Shown piece by piece: positions 23,931-32,587 of a stretch of 32,587 nucleotides of DNA. The notes beneath the pieces are model-generated. The model did not search any database, was not told the DNA's origin, and saw only the letters and a program-made list of their open reading frames with translations. Each line of letters starts with the position of its first letter. Position 1 is the first letter of the stretch. A program made the translations under genes and the position numbers. Origin of the DNA: Verrucomicrobiales bacterium. Lineage in GTDB: Bacteria; Verrucomicrobiota; Verrucomicrobiia; Verrucomicrobiales; DEV007. The stretch spans positions 47,070 to 79,656 of the forward strand of contig JARGOP010000007.1 of NCBI GenBank assembly GCA_029233965.1, read 5' to 3'.

Positions 23931-25535
23931 CTACCAGACAAACTTCGGGACCGACCGGAAAAGCTTCATCTCAGTGTCGTTCGAAAGAGGCTCACCGGGA
24001 GTTGAGCGCCCCCGATTCAGAAGGGCTTCCAAATCCCCTAACATCGCCGCAAGCCGGTCCGCCTCCTTCCCGGCGAGGTCTTTCGATTCCGTCGGATCGG
24101 TGGGTAAATGATAGAGCTGCACAAACGGCGTCCGTTTCAGTTCGTCATGATTTTCCGGTTTCTTTCCAAACGACTCCACCGCTGCCTTCCACGCACTGTT
24201 TGAATCGGGGCGACTCGCAAAGCGGCCGTTCGATCCACTTCCGGGTCCGACGATCAATTTCCAATCGCCTTTACGATACGAGTGCGCTGTCGAGCCACTG
24301 GCAATGAGGCTGGTTCGTGTCGGCGCGGTTTCCGGATCCTTGAGGAGCGGGAGAAAGCTGATCGAATCAGGTCCCTCCTCATCGGACAATGCCTGCCCCG
24401 TCACCTCCGCAAGCGTCGCCATCAAATCGATCGTACTGATCATTTCTTCGCAGACACCGCCACCCTCAATGACCCCGGGCCACGCCGCGGCAAAGGGTAC
24501 ACGATGGCCTCCCTCCAGCGCCGAAAATTTGTACCCCCGCCACGGTCCGTTCGCATGGTGTCCATCCTTGTGCATTTCTTCGGCCTGAAAGGCCGTCGCC
24601 TCGTACTTCCGCCCGGAGTAATGCCCCGGGCCGTGGTCCGAGGTAGCGATGAAAAGCGTTTCCCCCTCCACGCCATGCCGCGCGAGCGCTTCGCGGATCC
24701 GGCCAATACAGGCGTCGGTGTTCATGACAAAGTCTCCGTAGATCCCGATGCGACTTTTCCCGAGAAACTCCGGTTCCGGAGAAGTCGGGGTATGCGGTGC
24801 CGTCAGCCCGACGAAGAGAAAAAACGGCTCGTCTCTTGCCGCCTGCCCGCCAATGAAGCGGTCCGCCTCTTCGCAAAACCGCGGCAGCACTTCATGATCC
24901 ACAAAATCCTCCGAGGCAGGGCCGAGCCGGTTGAAGGCACTCCACCCTTTCTCGGCGGTGACGGACCCAACCCAGTCACCGTTCCTGAGAAACGCATAGG
25001 GAGGCATGTCCAGCGACCCGGGAAGAATGAAGGTCTCATCGAATCCAAAATCGTTCGGACCGGTCAGGAGCGGCTTCGTGAAGTCTACCGTCTCATCACT
25101 CTGCACGGCTCCACCTTTCGTGGCCATCCCGGTGCCAAGGTGCCACTTCCCGACGTAGCCGGTGGTATACCCCGCACGCTTCATGAGGTCTCCCAGGGTA
25201 AAGCGATCCGGCGAAAACTGTGGACCGAGAAATCCCCAGGGGCCACCGCCTTTGGGGCGCTCGTATCGCAGGGCGTAGCGTCCCGTCATCATGGAAACCC
25301 GGCTCGGGATACACACCGAATCGGTGACATGAGCATCCGTGAACTTGATACCGTCGGCACAAAGCTGATCAAAGTGAGGAGTATCGATATTGCAAAAATC
25401 ACCCCCGAAAGATTCGATATCTCCGTAGCCAAGGTCATCGGCAACGAGCAAGACCACATTGGGCCGGGAGACCGGTTCCGCAAAAACCGGATGAAAGAAA
25501 AGACACAAAGCGAAGAGGTAGAGAATTCGAACCAT
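23931..25535 (-). CDS. Secreted sulfatase (PF00884)
   Basis: 534 residues from ATG 25535, which begins a Sec signal (MVRILYLFALCLFFHPVFA); the longer in-frame start at 25622 puts 29 residues before the signal. It has the metal-binding Asp pair (VVLLVADDLGYGDIESFGG), formylglycine motif C75-IPSR in VCIPSRVSMMTGRYALR, GYVGKWHLGTG, the second metal site FIATSDHGPGHYSG, and LEGGHRVPFAAAWPG. All catalytic elements are present. It should cleave sulfate esters in the periplasm or outside the cell; the substrate is unresolved, with the C-terminal half similar to the N-acetylgalactosamine/choline-type sulfatase region. Divergent from the sulfatase at 25743, sharing a 207-base control region with a palindrome at 25617-25636. 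Confidence 0.95.
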   Translation of the reverse strand: MVRILYLFALCLFFHPVFAEPVSRPNVVLLVADDLGYGDIESFGGDFCNIDTPHFDQLCADGIKFTDAHVTDSVCIPSRVSMMTGRYALRYERPKGGGPWGFLGPQFSPDRFTLGDLMKRAGYTTGYVGKWHLGTGMATKGGAVQSDETVDFTKPLLTGPNDFGFDETFILPGSLDMPPYAFLRNGDWVGSVTAEKGWSAFNRLGPASEDFVDHEVLPRFCEEADRFIGGQAARDEPFFLFVGLTAPHTPTSPEPEFLGKSRIGIYGDFVMNTDACIGRIREALARHGVEGETLFIATSDHGPGHYSGRKYEATAFQAEEMHKDGHHANGPWRGYKFSALEGGHRVPFAAAWPGVIEGGGVCEEMISTIDLMATLAEVTGQALSDEEGPDSISFLPLLKDPETAPTRTSLIASGSTAHSYRKGDWKLIVGPGSGSNGRFASRPDSNSAWKAAVESFGKKPENHDELKRTPFVQLYHLPTDPTESKDLAGKEADRLAAMLGDLEALLNRGRSTPGEPLSNDTEMKLFRSVPKFVW

Positions 25536-25616
25536 GGAGACAGCGTCCTGAATTCCCGTCTCCTTCGCAATCCGCAAAAAGGACGACTTCGCGGAACCCG
25601 CCCGAGTTTTGAGCAC

Positions 25617-25636
25617 GAACAAGCAGACCCTTGTTC
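25617..25636. promoter_or_regulatory. 20-bp palindrome in the divergent sulfatase control region
   Basis: GAACAAG (25617-25623), loop CAGACC, CTTGTTC (25630-25636): a perfect 7-bp inverted repeat. It lies 82 bases before the minus-strand sulfatase start and 107 before the plus-strand one. Candidate operator, or a leader hairpin of the minus-strand mRNA. Confidence 0.35.
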
Positions 25637-25742
25637 CATCGTTTTCACTTACGCTTAAACCCTACCCAGGCGAATTTGGCTTGATCACGCATTTTCCAAC
25701 CGCACCTTCCTTTCTTTACCTAACCGGCGCTAAAGACACCCC

Positions 25743-27233
25743 ATGAAGACTTTTTTCCCTGTCCTCCTCTCTGTCCTCTCTCTCTCAACGATCTGTCACG
25801 CTGATGCGCGTCCCAATTTCATCGTCCTTATTTCCGATGACATCAGCTACGACGATCTCGGGTGCTACGGCAGCCTCGACGCCCGCACCCCACACATCGA
25901 TGCGCTTGCGGAGGAGGGCATGCTTTTCACGAACGCCTACCTCACTGCAAGCAGCTGCAGCCCGAGCCGGTCGAGCATCATCACGGGGCGCTACCCTCAC
26001 AACAACGGCGATGCCTCGGAGCTTCACCGCCCCATTTCCTGGCACATCCCTTCTCTTGGAGGCATCCTCCGCGACGCCGGTTACTACACCGCTCTCGCCG
26101 GCAAAGATCACATGACCTGGCACAAGGCACCGGAGGGCGAAACCGCCCCGACGGATTCCTTTGAGAAGCGTTACGACTCCAAGGTCAAGGGAAACAGCGG
26201 CGGCCATGGCAACTGGCTCACCGCCCTCGCAGAGCGGCCAAAGGAAAAACCCTTCTTTCTCTGGCTCGCCGCTCTCGATGCCCACCGCGTCTGGGACGGT
26301 CGCCACGAATGGGACGAAGCACTCTACGGACCAAAGTATGATCCGGCCAAACTCACTCTGCCACCTGCTTTCATCGATACCCCGGAGACCCGCGAAGACT
26401 TCGCTGCCTACCTCCTCGAGGTGACCCGCTTTGACTACTTTGTCGGACAGGTCGTCGATCAGCTCAAGAAAGAGGGGGAATTTGAGAACACCTATCTCTA
26501 CGTCATCGCCGACAACGGCCGCCCCTTTCCCCGGGCCAAAACCCGTCTCCACGACGACGGCATGAAGACCTATTTCGTCGCGAGTGGCCCTTCCATTGCT
26601 GCGCCCGGATCGCGCAGCCGGTCCCTCGTCAGTGTCATCGATATCGCTCCGACGATGGTCGAACTCGCGGGACTGGAGAAGCCGGAAACCTTCCAGGGCC
26701 GATCCATAACTCCCCTCTACGCCGACGCAACCGCCTCGATCCGCCCCTTCGCCTTCTCCGAGCACAACTGGCATGACTACGAAGCCCACGGTCGCTCCGT
26801 GCGCGACGGTCGCTGGCTTTACATCCGGAATTCACGTCCACAACTGGCGCTCGAAGGACCTGCTGACTCTGCTGGTTCCCCGACCTTTCAGGATCTCATC
26901 ACCGCTGCGGAATCCTCCGAGCCACTCCCCCCGATCCAGGCCGATATCTTCCTTGCCCCGCGCCCGGAAGTGGAACTCTACGACTCGGCGGCGGACCCGC
27001 ATCAAATCAGCAATCTCGCGGGACAGGAATCCTATGCCTCCATCGAGAAGCGACTTTCCGACGCATTGGACCACTGGATCGACAAAACCGGTGACTCAGC
27101 CCCGGAGGAAATCAGCAAAGACGGATTCGACCGTCGCACCGGAAAGAAGACCTTTACGTCACGGGACGACTACCAGCGACCTCCTGCGGGTGCTGATCGC
27201 GGTGCGGACATGATCAATCACGAGGGGCTTTAA
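25743..27233 (+). CDS. Sulfatase of the N-sulfoglucosamine sulfohydrolase type
   Basis: 496 residues with a Sec signal (MKTFFPVLLSVLSLSTICHA). It carries FIVLISDDISYDDLGCYG (metal-binding Asp pair), the formylglycine motif C72-SPSR in SSCSPSRSSIITGRYPH, LAGKDHMTW and YVIADNGRPFPRAKTRLHDD. The last segment, with DDGMKTYF in place of the EGG-R-P loop of ordinary arylsulfatases, is characteristic of heparan N-sulfatase-like enzymes (SGSH-like, family S1_8 in my reading). Members remove N-linked sulfate from glucosamine, or ester sulfate from related sugars; here the substrate is inferred only. It ends 88 bases before a convergent minus-strand operon, with a double hairpin between. Confidence 0.93.
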   Translation: MKTFFPVLLSVLSLSTICHADARPNFIVLISDDISYDDLGCYGSLDARTPHIDALAEEGMLFTNAYLTASSCSPSRSSIITGRYPHNNGDASELHRPISWHIPSLGGILRDAGYYTALAGKDHMTWHKAPEGETAPTDSFEKRYDSKVKGNSGGHGNWLTALAERPKEKPFFLWLAALDAHRVWDGRHEWDEALYGPKYDPAKLTLPPAFIDTPETREDFAAYLLEVTRFDYFVGQVVDQLKKEGEFENTYLYVIADNGRPFPRAKTRLHDDGMKTYFVASGPSIAAPGSRSRSLVSVIDIAPTMVELAGLEKPETFQGRSITPLYADATASIRPFAFSEHNWHDYEAHGRSVRDGRWLYIRNSRPQLALEGPADSAGSPTFQDLITAAESSEPLPPIQADIFLAPRPEVELYDSAADPHQISNLAGQESYASIEKRLSDALDHWIDKTGDSAPEEISKDGFDRRTGKKTFTSRDDYQRPPAGADRGADMINHEGL

Positions 27234-27320: not shown

Positions 27321-28220
27321 TCACCCCTTCGGATCCACCGCCCGATAGGCTTCGATGACCGCTTCTTCTCCTGCGACGCCCTTGCCGGCGTTCCCGTGCT
27401 CCATCCCGACGATGCCGTCGAATCCCGACGCATGCACATGGGCAAAAACTTTCGCGTAGTTGATCTCGCCCGTTCCGGGCTCTTTGCGGCCCGGATTATC
27501 GCCCACCTGGAGATAGCCGATCTGATCGCGGCAGAGATCAAATAACGGAATCAGATTTCCACCCGCAATCTGTTGATGATAGAGATCGTAGAGCACCTTG
27601 CAGTTCGGATGATCCACCGCTTCACAAATCAGAAAGCCTTCCGTGACCGTCTGGAGAAAAGAACCGGGATGATTCTGAAAACGGTTCAGTGGCTCCATCA
27701 CCATCGTGATGCCATGCGGCTCGACAATTTCACTGGCCCGACGCAACAGCTCGATACAATTCGCGTATTGAATTTCACGCGGCCAGCGGGGATCGACCTG
27801 CCCTGACACGAGCGTCATGTAGCCGGCATTGACCCGCTTCGCGACTTCAATTGTGTCACGAATCTGATCGAGGACCAGCTGCCTCGCCTCTTTGTCTTTC
27901 GAAGCAAAATTCAAAGCGCCAATGCCCGTCTTCGCGGAAACGACGCCCATCGTCATGCCCAGCTTTTCCATAAGAGCACCGATCGCCTTCTGGTCTTCCA
28001 ACGGTCGGGATCCCATCCCGTTATCCTCCCAGGCCCGGAACCCCTGATCATAGGCAAATTGCAATTCATCGAGCAACCCGCCGGGAGCGGACTCCTTGAA
28101 CATACCAAAATGGGGCGCGTAATTCAGAGTGAAGGCCGACTCGCTTTGGGCAAAAGCCCTCCCCGCAAAGAAGGCGGTTCCTCCCGCTGCGACCGAGGAA
28201 ACAAAGTGGCGTCGATTCAT
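27321..28220 (-). CDS. Hydroxypyruvate isomerase-like TIM-barrel protein with Tat signal
   Basis: 299 residues with an N-terminal NRRHFVSSVAAGGTAFFAG twin-arginine signal, so it is probably exported. The rest matches the hydroxypyruvate isomerase/xylose-isomerase-like TIM barrel (AP endonuclease 2 superfamily): ITMVMEPLNRF with Glu176, VLYDLYHQQ, YLQVGDNPGRKEPGTGEINY, and GIVGMEHGN with Glu274. These are the two metal-binding/catalytic glutamates and the PGRxEPGxGE loop of Hyi enzymes. Family members isomerise or epimerise small hydroxy-keto compounds or sugars. The ATG overlaps the stop of the SsuD-like gene (TAATG), so the two are co-translated; that suggests it acts on a product or precursor in the same pathway. 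Confidence 0.9.
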   Translation of the reverse strand: MNRRHFVSSVAAGGTAFFAGRAFAQSESAFTLNYAPHFGMFKESAPGGLLDELQFAYDQGFRAWEDNGMGSRPLEDQKAIGALMEKLGMTMGVVSAKTGIGALNFASKDKEARQLVLDQIRDTIEVAKRVNAGYMTLVSGQVDPRWPREIQYANCIELLRRASEIVEPHGITMVMEPLNRFQNHPGSFLQTVTEGFLICEAVDHPNCKVLYDLYHQQIAGGNLIPLFDLCRDQIGYLQVGDNPGRKEPGTGEINYAKVFAHVHASGFDGIVGMEHGNAGKGVAGEEAVIEAYRAVDPKG

Positions 28221-29386
28221 TACTTCCTTTCTCCGTAGGTGAGAGGAGTCTCCGGCGTTTCGGCGGGGAGACGTCCCTGGGCAATGTTCAGCTTCGTCGT
28301 GTCAAGTCGCGGCAGGACATGTTTCGCAAAGAGTTCGCATTCGTCGAGGTGGGGATAACCGGACAAAATGAAGGCCCGCATTCCCATGTCGATGTAACGC
28401 TGCATCTTCTCATAAACCTGATCCGGATTTCCGACGATGGCACTTCCGCATCCTGATCGGGCGCGTCCGACACCTGACCAGATATGATCCTCGATGTAGT
28501 CATCCTGCGACTGAGCCCGCAGTTCATCCTGACGGAGCACCCCCGCTGATTTGTTGTCCTGGGCACGATTTTTAATCTCCTCTCCCTTGTCGGCATCGAG
28601 TTTGGAAATCAGCTTTTGCGCCGCGGCCCGGGCCTCTTCCCCGGTCTCGCGGACGATCATGTGGATGCGCAATCCAAAATCGATCTTCCTTCCGAATCCA
28701 GCGGCAAGTGTGCTCATTTCGCTCATGGTCTCCGCAAGGCGTTCCTCGGTTTCCGGCCACATCAAAAAGACATCACAGTGCTCGGCACAGAGAGCCTTTG
28801 CTCCGGGGGAAATCCCGCCAAAATAGAGCAGCGGACCGCCATTCTGCTGATAGGGCTTTGCGGCATCGGTGTTGGGAATCTCGAGATTGTAGTGCTCTCC
28901 CTTGAAACTGATGGCGTCCTCAGTCCAGCATTGCTTCAGGATCTCGATCACTTCCCGTGACTTGGCGTAGCGAACTTCACTTTCCACCCGCTCCCCCGGG
29001 AGATCCGAGGAAATGATGTTTACCGCCATGCGCCCTTTCGCGATGTGATCAATCGTGCTGAGATGGCGCGCCAGCATCGGGGGATGAATCTCGCCCATGC
29101 GGACTGCAATCAGTTGATTGATTTGTTCGGTCTGAGCTGCCATTGCCGAGGCAAAAGGCAGCGGTTCCTGACCGACAACAAAGGACGACGGAAGCAATAT
29201 ATTCTGATAACCGAGACGATCGGCCATCCTGACAATATCACCACAGTGATCATAACTGCTTCGCAAATAGCCGTTCGGAACGCCGAGGTATTCGTAGTCA
29301 TCGCCACAAAGAGCGGAGAACCAGGCAACCTCGACTTTTCGTTCCGGGCTGCGAATTTCGATGGGGGGAGACGGAGTATCTGACAT
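28220..29386 (-). CDS. SsuD-like LLM-class flavin-dependent monooxygenase
   Basis: 388 residues from ATG 29386 (starting at 29434 would add sixteen residues). It is collinear with alkanesulfonate monooxygenase Ssu[15 protein letters not shown] at the first strand, [56 protein letters not shown] (Arg240, His242), [14 protein letters not shown] and [10 protein letters not shown] (Tyr344). Recalled against E. coli SsuD, the Arg226, His228, Arg297 and Tyr331 positions are kept, but the His11 and Cys54 positions are not (Cys, and Val/Gly). The fold and FMNH2 chemistry are therefore likely conserved while the substrate pocket differs. Expected reaction: FMNH2 and O2 cleave a sulfonate C-S bond to an aldehyde plus sulfite. 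No flavin reductase is encoded nearby. Sixteen bases downstream of the exporter gene. Confidence 0.9.
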
Positions 29387-29402
29387 AAATGAAGAAGGTG
29401 GG

Positions 29403-30542
29403 TTAGAAGAAAGCACGAACCGCCGCAACAACAACGACGGTAATGAAAATAGAGGCGGAAACGGAAGCGACGAGCGGACGCAAGCCCACTTCCCGGGCCT
29501 GCGAAATCCGCGTCTGGAACCCTACCCCGACCATGCCGGCAGCAAGGAGAAACGTGGAAACCAGCTTGAGCAGCCCGGCGCTGTCAAACTCCACCCCCGT
29601 CGTTTCCCATTTCAGGGCGACCTCGGGGAACAATCCGAAGGTCCTCGCAAGGGCGACCAGCAAAAAGCCGATCGCAAAACCGGGAACGAGGCGATACCAG
29701 GGCTTCTTTGTTGCGGCAGACCCGGATTCAGCACGCGACATCCACCACCCGATGATCACTGCCACCGGCGCAAGGAGGCAAACCCGCGAGAGCTTGGCGA
29801 CCGTGGCCACCTGACCGGCTTCCTCTCCGACCGCAAATCCTGCCGCAATCACCTGGGGTGTCTGATGAATTGTGAGTCCGGCGAGCAATCCGAATTGCGT
29901 CTGTGATAGGCCCAGCAGACCCGCCACAAGCGGTAAGAGAATCATCGCCCCCAGACCAATCAAGGTGACCAGCCCGACACAGACGAGGACATGGTTTTCC
30001 TTCGCTTTCAGCAAGGGGGCCACCGCGACGATGGCGGTTCCCCCGCAAATCCCGGTCCCGACGCCAAGCAGCAGCGCCATGTTCCGATCAAGACCGAGAA
30101 GTTTTCCCAGCCAGTGAAAAAGCCCGATCGAAATCACAACCACACCCAGACCCATCGCCATCCCGGGCCCACCGATGCGCAATGCTTCGAGGAAGTCCAT
30201 GCGCGCGCCGAGTAAAATGATCCCGAAAGGGAGGAGCCTCCGGACCGTGAAACTTGCCCCGGGCAGCAGCTTTCTCGCCGCGATCAGATTTCCGGCCGCC
30301 AGCCCCAGGAGCATGCTGAGCAGGACCGGGTCGAGGAGCATCGCCTGAGTCCACCCTGCCCTGATGATCCCCCAACTGATCGCAAAAGCGACGCCGGCGA
30401 GGGCGATCATGACGAACACTCCCGGCCATGAGCGCTCTTTTGACTGCGGCTCTACCGGTTCCCCCCCTTCCATCCAAATGAGATGCTCGGCCCACGCATA
30501 GCGGGGCGGCTCTCCGGATTCTGATGGATTGGTTGCGGTCAT
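29403..30542 (-). CDS. Putative sulfate exporter family transporter (YeiH/PSE)
   Basis: 379 residues from ATG 30542, preceded by CAGGAAA at Shine-Dalgarno distance; a TTG at 30557 is a weaker start. A hydrophilic N-terminus of about 40 residues is followed by ten or eleven hydrophobic helices. Family signatures: [37 protein letters not shown], and the repeated [13 protein letters not shown] and [13 protein letters not shown] motifs. This is the COG2855/UPF0324 family (PSE), members of which (for example SuyZ in sulfolactate degraders) are proposed to export sulfate or sulfite set free from sulfonates. It is the first gene of a three-gene operon with the SsuD-like monooxygenase, which fits disposal of the released sulfur anion. 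Confidence 0.92.
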
Positions 30543-30550
30543 GAAATTTC

Positions 30551-30579
30551 CTGACAAAGTGAGGATTAAACTTTAATAA
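30551..30579 (+). promoter_or_regulatory. Sigma70-like promoter for the Gfo/Idh/MocA gene
   Basis: CTGACA (30551-30556), a 17-base spacer, TAATAA (30574-30579), in a strikingly AT-rich divergent region. The predicted transcript would start near 30586, leaving about 36 leader bases before ATG 30622. Confidence 0.45.
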
Positions 30580-30583
30580 TTTT

Positions 30584-30611
30584 GTTTGCAACTAATTAAT
30601 TCGTTTGTTAC
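30584..30611. promoter_or_regulatory. Direct repeat flanking an AT-rich core in the divergent promoter region
   Basis: GTTTGCAAC (30584-30592) and GTTTGTTAC (30603-30611), 19 bases apart, on either side of TAATTAATT. The repeat overlaps the predicted transcription start of the plus-strand gene and lies upstream of the minus-strand operon. Two turns of the helix apart on one face, it could be a regulator site controlling both. Confidence 0.3.
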
Positions 30612-30621
30612 TCATCCGCCC

Positions 30622-31947
30622 ATGAAATCACCTTACGCATCCACAAGACGGGAATTCCTCGAGCGATCCGGCACTCTCTCCGCCGCGTCTCTCACCCTCG
30701 CGCTGGCCTCCGAAATGTCAGCGCATGCCGCCAATGGATCCGGAGAATTGAAACTGGGACTGGTGGGATGCGGCGGTCGCGGTGCCGGGGCTGCCAATCA
30801 GGCTCTCACCGCCGACGACGGACTGAAGCTTTTCTCCATGTGCGACGTGAATCGCGAAACCATGGATACCGCAGCCGATATTCTGGAGAAGCAAAAGCCC
30901 GGACGACTCAATGTCTCTCCCGAGCGACGATACCGTGACTTCGACGGATTCAAGCGCGTCATCGCCGACTGCGATGTCATCATTCTCGCGACCTCACCGG
31001 GCTTTCGCCCGCAGCACTTCGAGGAAGCCGTCGCTCAGGGAAAACACGTTTTCATGGAGAAGCCGGTCGCAACCGATGTGGCCGGGATCAAGCGGGTCCT
31101 CGAAACGGCAAAGATCGCGAAGGCGAAAAATTTGAAAGTCGGCGTCGGGTTACAGCGACGCCACCAACCCGGATACCAGGAGTGGCTCAAGCGTATTCAG
31201 GATGGAGCGATCGGAGATCTCATCACAATCCGGGCGCTTTGGAACGGTTCCTCCCGCCCCGGTAAACCGCGTCTCGAAGGGGAAAGCGAACTCGAATACC
31301 AGATCCGGAACTGGTACTATTTCACCTGGCTTTCCGGCGATCACAACGTCGAGCAGCATGTTCACAATCTCGACGTCGCCAACTGGATGATGGGAGACCG
31401 GCATCCTGTCGTCGCCCGCGGCATGGGCGGGCGCGAAGTCCGCAATGCCCCTGAGAACGGCCAGATCTACGACCACCATTTCGTGGAGTATGAGTATGCC
31501 GACGGAACTCTGCTCTACAGCCAGGCCCGACAGATTCCCGGCTGCGCCCGGGACATCAGTGAATCGGCCGTTGGAACGCTCGGCCGTGCCAACCTCATGC
31601 AGCGCGAGTTCACCCTCTCCGGCCCCAACGCTGACACGATGCGTTTTCGTCAGAACGAAGACGGCCATCAACTCGAGCACTATCCCCTTTTCAAAGCGAT
31701 CCGCGAAAATCTCGACTACAACGAAGCCGAACGCGGTGCCATGGCAACGATGACCGGCATCCTCGGGCGCATGGCCAACTACTCCGGCCAGGAAGTGCGC
31801 TGGGATGACGCGATGGCGTCGAATCAGACCCTCGTCCCGACTGATCTCGTCGACTTCACCTCCCCTGCGCCGGTCCTTCCCGATGACGAAGGCCGCTACC
31901 CCGTAGCCGTCCCCGGAGCGACGGATCCTTTCGCAGTCTGGTATTGA
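30622..31947 (+). CDS. Tat-exported Gfo/Idh/MocA family oxidoreductase
   Basis: 441 residues from ATG 30622; a TTG at 30586 is rejected because it coincides with the expected transcript start. N-terminal twin-arginine signal (STRREFLERSGTLSAASLTL). Rossmann motif LGLVGCGGRGAGAANQAL at about 42-60, the catalytic-lysine motif EKPVATD near residue 146, and the C-terminal-domain signature DHNVEQHVHNLDVANWMMG. Family members use a tightly bound NAD(P) to oxidise, reduce or internally rearrange sugars, and PVC bacteria encode many exported versions. The substrate is unknown. It is divergent from the sulfonate-type operon and 83 bases upstream of an MFS transporter, so the pair may take up and convert a released sugar. 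Confidence 0.93.
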   Translation: MKSPYASTRREFLERSGTLSAASLTLALASEMSAHAANGSGELKLGLVGCGGRGAGAANQALTADDGLKLFSMCDVNRETMDTAADILEKQKPGRLNVSPERRYRDFDGFKRVIADCDVIILATSPGFRPQHFEEAVAQGKHVFMEKPVATDVAGIKRVLETAKIAKAKNLKVGVGLQRRHQPGYQEWLKRIQDGAIGDLITIRALWNGSSRPGKPRLEGESELEYQIRNWYYFTWLSGDHNVEQHVHNLDVANWMMGDRHPVVARGMGGREVRNAPENGQIYDHHFVEYEYADGTLLYSQARQIPGCARDISESAVGTLGRANLMQREFTLSGPNADTMRFRQNEDGHQLEHYPLFKAIRENLDYNEAERGAMATMTGILGRMANYSGQEVRWDDAMASNQTLVPTDLVDFTSPAPVLPDDEGRYPVAVPGATDPFAVWY

Positions 31948-32030: not shown

Positions 32031-32587
32031 ATGTCCAACGACCTCACCAAAAACGAAAAATGGTATCACGGAGTGACTCGCTACGAGTGGCTCGTTCTCA
32101 TCATCGCCTCCGCCGGCTGGATCTTTGACGTCTACGAAGGCCAGATCTTCAACCTGACGCGGAACGACATGCTCGCCGACATTCTTGGCCAGGAGCTCGG
32201 GAGCGCTGATGTAAAAAGATATGGTGACTGGTTTCTTGCCGTCTTCCTCATCGGGGGAACGTTTGGAGGTCTTCTTTTCGGATCTCTGGCTGACCGCTAC
32301 GGACGACGTCCCATCATGATCGTCACGATCCTGATGTATTCAGTCTTCTCCGGACTTACCTTTTTCGCGACCGAACTCTGGCATGTTACCGCTCTGCGTT
32401 TTCTCGTTGCCATGGGTGTCGGCGGGGAATGGGCCGTCGCCGCCGCCCTCGTTTCCGAGGTCTTCCCGAAAAAGGCGAGGGCGCATGCTTCCAGTATTTT
32501 CCACGCCTCTTCGGTGATTGGAACCTGGCTTGCCGCGATTGCCGCCTATCTCGTGAACACGAACTGGGAATACGCCTACCTCGTCGG
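32031..32587 (+). CDS. MFS transporter, N-terminal part (runs off the window)
   Basis: 185 codons are present; the gene continues past the end. It shows the first transmembrane helices of a major facilitator: EWLVLIIASAGWIFDVYEGQ (helix 1 with a membrane-embedded acidic residue), GGTFGGLLFGSLADRYGRRP (the loop 2-3 motif A, G-x-L-A-D-R-x-G-R-R), and ALRFLVAMGVGGEWAVAAAL (helix 4, R-x-x-x-G-x-G-x-G), typical of the sugar/organic-acid porter side of the family. Likely a proton-coupled importer of a sugar or organic acid; the substrate is unknown. Start at 32031 with no Shine-Dalgarno site upstream. Confidence 0.93.
   Translation, partial: MSNDLTKNEKWYHGVTRYEWLVLIIASAGWIFDVYEGQIFNLTRNDMLADILGQELGSADVKRYGDWFLAVFLIGGTFGGLLFGSLADRYGRRPIMIVTILMYSVFSGLTFFATELWHVTALRFLVAMGVGGEWAVAAALVSEVFPKKARAHASSIFHASSVIGTWLAAIAAYLVNTNWEYAYLV

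Follow-up and report, generated by a model that had tools for sequence, protein, structure and literature searches.

What does a luciferase-like, FMNH2-dependent monooxygenase (LLM) act on when its gene lies between those of an exporter and an isomerase-like protein in a Verrucomicrobiota genome? The question is raised by a stretch of 32,587 nucleotides (the window) from a Verrucomicrobiales bacterium (assembly GCA_029233965.1, contig JARGOP010000007.1, positions 47,070 to 79,656). Three intact open reading frames (ORFs) follow one another there on the minus strand, encoding a YeiH/PSE-family exporter (29403-30542; 379 residues from ATG; PF03601), the monooxygenase, of the SmoC/SquD clade (28220-29386; 388 residues from ATG; PF00296), and a hydroxypyruvate-isomerase-like TIM barrel (27321-28220; 299 residues; PF01261). 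The exporter and monooxygenase genes are 16 bases apart, and the monooxygenase stop overlaps the isomerase start in a TAATG at 28218-28222, as had been described in an earlier reading of the DNA alone (the original prediction), which took the three genes for one sulfonate-cleaving operon. The cluster is considered here likely to serve the regulated breakdown of sulfoquinovose (SQ) or of a sulfo-sugar closely resembling it.

A monooxygenase of the sulfoquinovose clade

The closest PDB matches of the monooxygenase are 7olf and 7oh2 (E 2.6e-136 and 1e-135), whose entry titles describe monooxygenases for the oxidative desulfurization of sulfoquinovose. A predicted model of the window enzyme (pLDDT 82) aligns with 7oh2 at Z 45.2 (54% identity) and with 7olf at Z 44.7 (53%), against Z 39.7 (35%) for MsuD and Z 30.5-35.3 (26-34%) for SsuD entries. 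The identity to the SQ enzymes, 53-54%, thus compares with 26-35% to the SsuD and MsuD entries taken together. In an IQ-TREE phylogeny of 34 rows, with three long-branch outer rows kept in, the enzyme belongs to a 26-row clade that takes in 7olf, 7oh2 and the Rhizobium sp. SL42, Roseivivax and Novosphingobium proteins, apart from six SsuD/MsuD-like rows (support 99/99). The original prediction had staked its reading on such a tree, and the enzyme is found in a sulfonate (SQ) clade rather than a non-sulfonate one.

The sulfonate-binding residues are conserved. According to the text of PMC8234197, MsuD binds the sulfonate through W195, R225 and R296. Their equivalents in the window enzyme are W210, R240 and R310, the first two kept in all 26 clade rows and the third in 25. 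The groups differ in a loop, which is RSGC in 24 of the 26 clade rows and RGGA or RGGS in all six SsuD-like rows. A generic SsuD identity was rejected, given the closer likeness to SQ enzymes, the 99/99 split in the tree and a TIGR03565 (SsuD) score of 258 bits, below the curated cut-off of 518. By sequence and predicted structure, the protein is a previously undescribed member of the SQ monooxygenase clade. Judging from the N-termini of relatives, its translation probably begins at the ATG at 29386 rather than at an upstream TTG, and it is the product of the one PF00296 gene in the host genome. Two proposals of the original prediction are strengthened by the SQ monooxygenases being its closest solved relatives: oxygenolytic C-S cleavage by an FMNH2-dependent enzyme, which would hold by analogy, and a sulfoquinovose-like substrate, suggested at the time by comparison with Agrobacterium.

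Why sulfoquinovose in particular? Release of sulfite from SQ has been reported for SmoC and SquD, according to the text of a 2026 review (PMC12890257). Within the clade, the cluster of Rhizobium sp. SL42 contains the monooxygenase, an aldo-keto reductase (AKR), a flavin reductase, a TRAP importer, a putative sulfate exporter and a Gfo/Idh/MocA (Gfo) protein. This last protein matches 8zn9 (E 9e-153; titled putative oxidoreductase only) as well as 8qc3 and 8qc2 (E 1e-108 and 9e-108), which we take to be entries of the sulfoquinovosidase SqgA, and it keeps an EHRFPFL.K loop. In SqgA the Arg, Leu and Lys of that loop bind the sulfonate, as the text of PMC10755693 describes. In Novosphingobium US6-1, a GH31 protein matches YihQ, and the YihQ entry 5aed is titled sulfoquinovosidase. 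These two clusters with SQ-type partners come from different parts of the monooxygenase clade, and the window enzyme is 53% and 49% identical to their monooxygenases, which are 51% identical to each other.

Other clade members have other company. On an Emticicia plasmid (L122, 6489-12417) a clade monooxygenase has genes for a sodium/solute symporter and a GH95 protein beside it, a set that hints at another sulfo-sugar. On a Spirosoma plasmid (L125, 8977-13408) the genes that come after it encode a permease, a cytochrome c and a sulfite dehydrogenase of SoxC type, a run fitting sulfite release and oxidation.

Conserved gene neighborhood

Divergently from the three genes, on the plus strand, the window encodes a Gfo/Idh/MocA oxidoreductase with a twin-arginine (Tat)-type export signal (30622-31947; PF01408) and the 5' part of a major facilitator superfamily (MFS) transporter of organic-anion/sugar type (32031-32587; the gene ends at about 33299, beyond the window). 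A ROK regulator follows the MFS gene outside the window (about 33315-34490). The contig is 115,621 bases long and the genome, of 4.83 Mb, is 96% complete in 151 contigs.

To what extent is this arrangement conserved? A search of genome contigs confirmed 132 relatives, of which 80 were kept, and neighborhoods were counted over 85 loci (L002, L034, L037-L039 and L042-L121). L023-L033, L035, L036 and L040 were excluded as second copies of contigs already counted; L041 (genome G001), which shows ROK, MFS and Gfo genes, is outside the counts. The counts are raw, from loci that share ancestry; the contigs are often short, with at least 6 kb on both sides at 39 of the 85 loci, and matches of low identity are included (a few cytosolic Gfo proteins at 22-28%, one Gfo at 28% and many ROK proteins at 29-37%). 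The monooxygenase gene was present in 20 of the 36 genomes searched, the window's own counted, and 76 of the 80 kept relatives bear Verrucomicrobiota-type names. The remaining titles are Hydrogenedentota, Blastopirellula, Kuenenia and a plain bacterium, with L118, L121 and L064 being contigs of Blastopirellula, Kuenenia and Hydrogenedentota metagenome-assembled genomes.

In the three loci L042, L043 and L062 (monooxygenase identity 87-93%), the ROK, MFS, Gfo, exporter, monooxygenase and isomerase genes follow the order of the window. Across the whole set, the genes most often found within 8 kb of the monooxygenase are those for an MFS transporter (53 of 85 loci), a cytosolic Gfo protein termed C6 (44) and a ROK-family protein (43), ahead of the exported Gfo (27), an FMN reductase (14), the isomerase (8), YeiH (7) and a SmoB-like AKR (5). 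These matches cluster close to the monooxygenase: the numbers below 6 kb and at 6-9.5 kb are 53 and 0 for MFS, 44 and 1 for ROK, 43 and 3 for C6, 27 and 1 for the exported Gfo and 14 and 0 for the FMN reductase, the far zone being about 36% as long as the near one. In the 39 loci with long flanks the numbers are MFS 26, ROK 25, C6 21, exported Gfo 17, FMN reductase 9, YeiH 5, isomerase 4 and AKR 2. In 31 cases C6 is the next gene after the monooxygenase and has the same orientation; in 10 the FMN reductase immediately precedes the monooxygenase. The commoner unit joins the monooxygenase to an MFS transporter and a ROK protein, and frequently also to an exported Gfo, a cytosolic oxidoreductase or a flavin reductase.

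The full trio of exporter, monooxygenase and isomerase is present in only five of the 85 loci (L002, L042, L043, L048 and L062), and relatives in which the three genes are unlinked exist, a pattern that the original prediction had itself set against its operon. Nor does the missing flavin reductase distinguish the window, as had been supposed: an FMN_red-type gene adjoins the monooxygenase in 14 of the 85 loci, and, in the text of PMC9594981, some clusters of the sulfo-ASMO type are described without a flavin reductase of their own, FMNH2 being presumed to come from elsewhere. In the host, one PF01613 gene and one PF03358 gene lie elsewhere in the genome and could supply it.

Two loci illustrate the variation among partners. 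In L048 (monooxygenase 85% identical), exporter, FMN reductase, monooxygenase, SmoB-like AKR and isomerase form one run, the AKR being 37% identical to that of SL42. In Chthoniobacter flavus Ellin428 (L054, 7217-12454) a single run has the order ROK, FMN reductase, monooxygenase, C6 and MFS, with an exported Gfo gene divergent. C6 (for example L086, 10100-11191) has generic dehydrogenases as its best PDB matches (E 2e-23) and reaches 8qc2 at E 1e-18; it is a candidate 6-dehydroglucose reductase or glycosidase.

Two PF00884 sulfatase genes adjoin the cluster in the window (23931-27233). They were rejected as part of the conserved unit, since orthologues of more than 70% identity stand beside only two relatives' loci and the other matches there are paralogues of 23-37%.

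A conserved motif between the divergent operons

Between the divergent operons lies a 16-base motif, TAATTNNNTTTGCAAC (30577-30592), read on the plus strand of this promoter as TAATTTTGTTTGCAAC, which its conservation across relatives marks as a probable operator. With at most one mismatch it has 16 matches in the 1.22 Mb of the 85 loci, spread over 15 of them, and each lies no more than about 230 bases from where a Gfo, YeiH, FMN-reductase or monooxygenase gene begins; 30 scrambled patterns yield 0-2 matches. In nine of 12 whole genomes the exact motif occurs once, always at this cluster, and a tenth (G015) has a one-mismatch copy at its cluster; the remaining 21 one-mismatch matches in the 12 genomes are close to the 22 given by a reversed-pattern control. 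In L055 the exported Gfo gene is separate from the monooxygenase operon, and both promoters bear the motif. Its palindrome score is modest (6.5 of 12 pairs). Linkage suggests the ROK protein as its ligand.

Predicted exported proteins and a putative sulfite exporter

Where would the products of these genes act? An RRxF-type twin-arginine signal stands at the start of all seven isomerase orthologues, and RRx[FVL] occurs within the first 75 residues of 27 of 28 exported-Gfo relatives, against a background of four of 85 monooxygenases, one of 43 C6 proteins and one of 53 MFS proteins. The single Gfo relative lacking it (L066) probably has a misplaced ORF start. An isomerase exported in this way, as its signal suggests, would hardly meet what the cytosolic FMNH2 enzyme produces, so the role in processing the carbon product that the original prediction gave it is unlikely. 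The linkage points the same way. An orthologue lies near the monooxygenase gene in seven of 85 loci (the eighth match, in L083, is 24% only), directly 3' of it in six, and in genome G004 the isomerase (82% identity) is on a separate contig. Membership of the isomerase in the regulon everywhere was rejected on the same grounds, the G004 copy being unlinked and having no motif at up to three mismatches in the surrounding 8 kb. The best isomerase identities are 82-88% in G002, G004, G006, G012 and G014, and 53% in G011 and G021, probably the genomes of L046 and L050.

The fold of the isomerase-like protein is compatible with several activities. Its model (pLDDT 72) matches 3ngf, a Brucella protein (Z 22.8), 1k77 (Z 22.5), the 3-keto-glucoside 4-epimerase YcjR (Z 20.6) and tagatose 3-epimerases (Z 20.4-20.6), scores that do not separate isomerase, epimerase and lyase; TIGR03234 (hydroxypyruvate isomerase) gives 122 bits, below the curated cut-off of 353. 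A paralogue of 52% identity with an RR-type start adjoins a sulfatase-like gene at G000:C117:32875-33792 (L200, 3855-4793).

The exported Gfo protein was considered as a GH188 sulfoquinovosidase and rejected: by eye, neither of two motifs that the SL42 protein has in common with 8qc2/8qc3, EHRFPFL.K and EKCCHFFD, is present in its sequence. In L045, L046 and L050, broken fragments of an exported-Gfo gene lie in the divergent gap upstream of the monooxygenase gene (tblastn alignments of 73-105 residues at 39-49% identity), and no isomerase is nearby.

The exporter is a clear PF03601 member (220 bits; cut-off 24.5), with a TIGR00698 (YeiH) score of 153.8 bits that is below the curated cut-off of 232.6, and it is 30% identical to the putative sulfate exporter beside the SL42 cluster. 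It probably exports sulfite. The disposal of sulfite or sulfate envisaged in the original prediction has a possible counterpart in that exporter beside an SQ-type cluster.

Proposed function and alternatives

On present evidence, the cluster is most likely a Verrucomicrobiota variant of the pathway known as sulfo-SMO, a known pathway type with unusual partner genes. To judge by their signals, the exported Gfo and, in the nearest relatives, the exported isomerase-like protein would probably work outside the cytoplasm, on SQ-type sugar or glycosides of it that have yet to be taken up. The MFS symporter would take up the anionic sugar, and the cytosolic monooxygenase, with O2 and FMNH2 from an unlinked flavin reductase, would cut the C-S bond to give sulfite and 6-dehydroglucose; the sulfite would leave through the YeiH protein. 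In relatives, 6-dehydroglucose might be reduced by the SmoB-like AKR or by C6. The ROK repressor probably binds the TAATTNNNTTTGCAAC site, a site proposed from its conservation. Chthoniobacter flavus and Brevifollis gellanilyticus, which we take to be isolates, make the hypothesis testable, and C. flavus Ellin428 is a possible test host.

A further-reaching version, which we regard as rather unlikely in its entirety, would make this a complete sulfolytic SQ system of the Verrucomicrobiota. A Tat-exported NAD-type oxidoreductase, sometimes with a Tat-exported TIM-barrel lyase, would open SQ glycosides outside the cytoplasm in place of any known sulfoquinovosidase, an MFS symporter would import free SQ and the SmoC-type enzyme would cut it; in many relatives a cytosolic Gfo would replace SmoB as 6-dehydroglucose reductase, and in the window and the loci nearest to it both divergent operons would be under a dedicated ROK operator.

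Several observations weigh against the preferred reading. The pathway is incomplete as found in the host genome: a SmoB-like AKR was not found (best 35%, over partial length), the 34 matches of Gfo type included no orthologue of C6 (best 30%), and the L048-type FMN reductase that is present in nine of 20 genomes was not found either. The SL42 SmoA gave no match there, an empty result that alone shows nothing. GH31 was not found in the genome by a search that was positive in six of 14 controls, and no close GH188 was found (best 31% to the SL42 GH188-type protein); with the genome 96% complete in 151 contigs, the sulfoquinovosidase gap is possibly an assembly gap. The candidate reductases of relatives are ambiguous as well. 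The L048 AKR has generic AKRs such as YdhF as its top PDB matches (E 1e-60 to 1e-59), ahead of 7bby/7bbz (E 1e-54), which we take to be SmoB, and in G028, G032 and G035, whose clusters include C6, another part of the genome encodes a protein 51-52% identical to the L048 AKR, which speaks against C6 as a stand-in for SmoB. YeiH is near the monooxygenase in only seven loci, many of the 43 ROK-family matches, at 29-37% identity, may be paralogues, and the motif, in only 15 loci, belongs to the window's near relatives and not to the whole set. Finally, branch order within the 26-row clade is unsettled and the three outer rows are long-branched, and Bacteroidota clade members adjoin GH95 or SoxC genes; with neighbors so different, the substrate may vary within the clade.

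It is conceivable, if unlikely, that the same chemistry and cluster serve another substrate, a sulfo-sugar or sulfonated polyol such as sulfofucose or a sulfo-glycoside. The missing GH31 and close GH188 in the host would fit, as would the Bacteroidota loci, where no annotated sulfoquinovosidase appears in the stretch seen. However, the window enzyme is as close to the SQ-cluster enzymes (53% and 49%) as these are to each other (51%), and all three have the RSGC loop. That the enzyme is a broad alkanesulfonate monooxygenase which scavenges sulfur in the manner of SsuD or MsuD is highly improbable: superfamily, a 258-bit TIGR03565 match and the W, R and R residues are shared, but that score is about half the 518-bit cut-off, identity is far higher to the SQ enzymes, and the neighbors are ROK and MFS genes, no ABC sulfonate importer being recognised among the ORFs listed around the monooxygenase. 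The trio itself as the functional unit, with the isomerase acting on the carbon product, has the tight spacing, the TAATG overlap and the six loci with the isomerase directly 3' of the monooxygenase on its side. Yet this is the least credible of the alternatives in view of the Tat-type signals in all seven isomerases, the five loci that hold all three genes and the unlinked, motif-free copy in G004. An SQ-type catabolic unit remains the preferred reading.

Comparison with known systems

Like ssu and msu, the window encodes a luciferase-like FMNH2 monooxygenase that would cleave a C-S bond to an aldehyde and sulfite. The ssu and msu systems have an ABC importer and are controlled by sulfur starvation; their enzymes belong on the RGGA/RGGS side of the loop division, whereas the window enzyme is of another clade. 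The 3-keto-glycoside eliminases, which deglycosylate by oxidation and beta-elimination (text of PMC10628242), likewise combine an enzyme that oxidises the sugar at position 3 with a TIM barrel that depends on a metal, the likeness being one of fold types only. With the GH188 NAD-dependent sulfoquinovosidase SqgA (text of PMC10755693) the window has in common a Gfo/Idh/MocA fold adjoining an SQ-type monooxygenase, but the window protein has a Tat-type signal and, by eye, neither the EHRFPFL.K loop nor the EKCCHFFD motif.

The nearest systems are sulfo-SMO and sulfo-ASMO, represented by SmoC of Agrobacterium tumefaciens and SquD of Novosphingobium aromaticivorans. The monooxygenase clade and its sulfonate-binding residues are the same, and an exporter of the same family stands beside the Rhizobium sp. 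SL42 cluster. Unlike these, the window cluster shows no SmoA, SmoB or sulfoquinovosidase gene, and in their place MFS, ROK and exported Gfo genes, in a Verrucomicrobiota host; in relatives the monooxygenase is followed by a cytosolic Gfo in 31 cases.

The differences bear on how such clusters are counted. SQ production is put at about 10 billion tons per year in the texts of PMC12890257 and PMC10755693. The text of the 2026 review describes the monooxygenase route as mainly one of alpha- and beta-proteobacteria (PMC12890257), and that of a 2026 survey names Pseudomonadota orders, Actinomycetota and Spirochaetota for sulfo-SMO (PMC13372026). The survey text contains no word starting with verrucomicrob, its phylum figure being outside this check, and our literature search met no Verrucomicrobiota SQ monooxygenase in article text, figures and supplements being outside the search, so that a record may exist in print. 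As given in its text, the survey's rule for a sulfo-SMO cluster is SmoB and SmoC within 10 ORFs, SmoA being listed as optional (PMC13372026). A SmoB-type AKR was not found beside the SmoC-type gene of the window, which this rule would pass over. With 76 of the 80 relatives titled as Verrucomicrobiota and a SmoB-like neighbor in five of 85 loci, most of them would probably escape a SmoB-based rule, and surveys built on it would probably underestimate the part of the Verrucomicrobiota in sulfur cycling.

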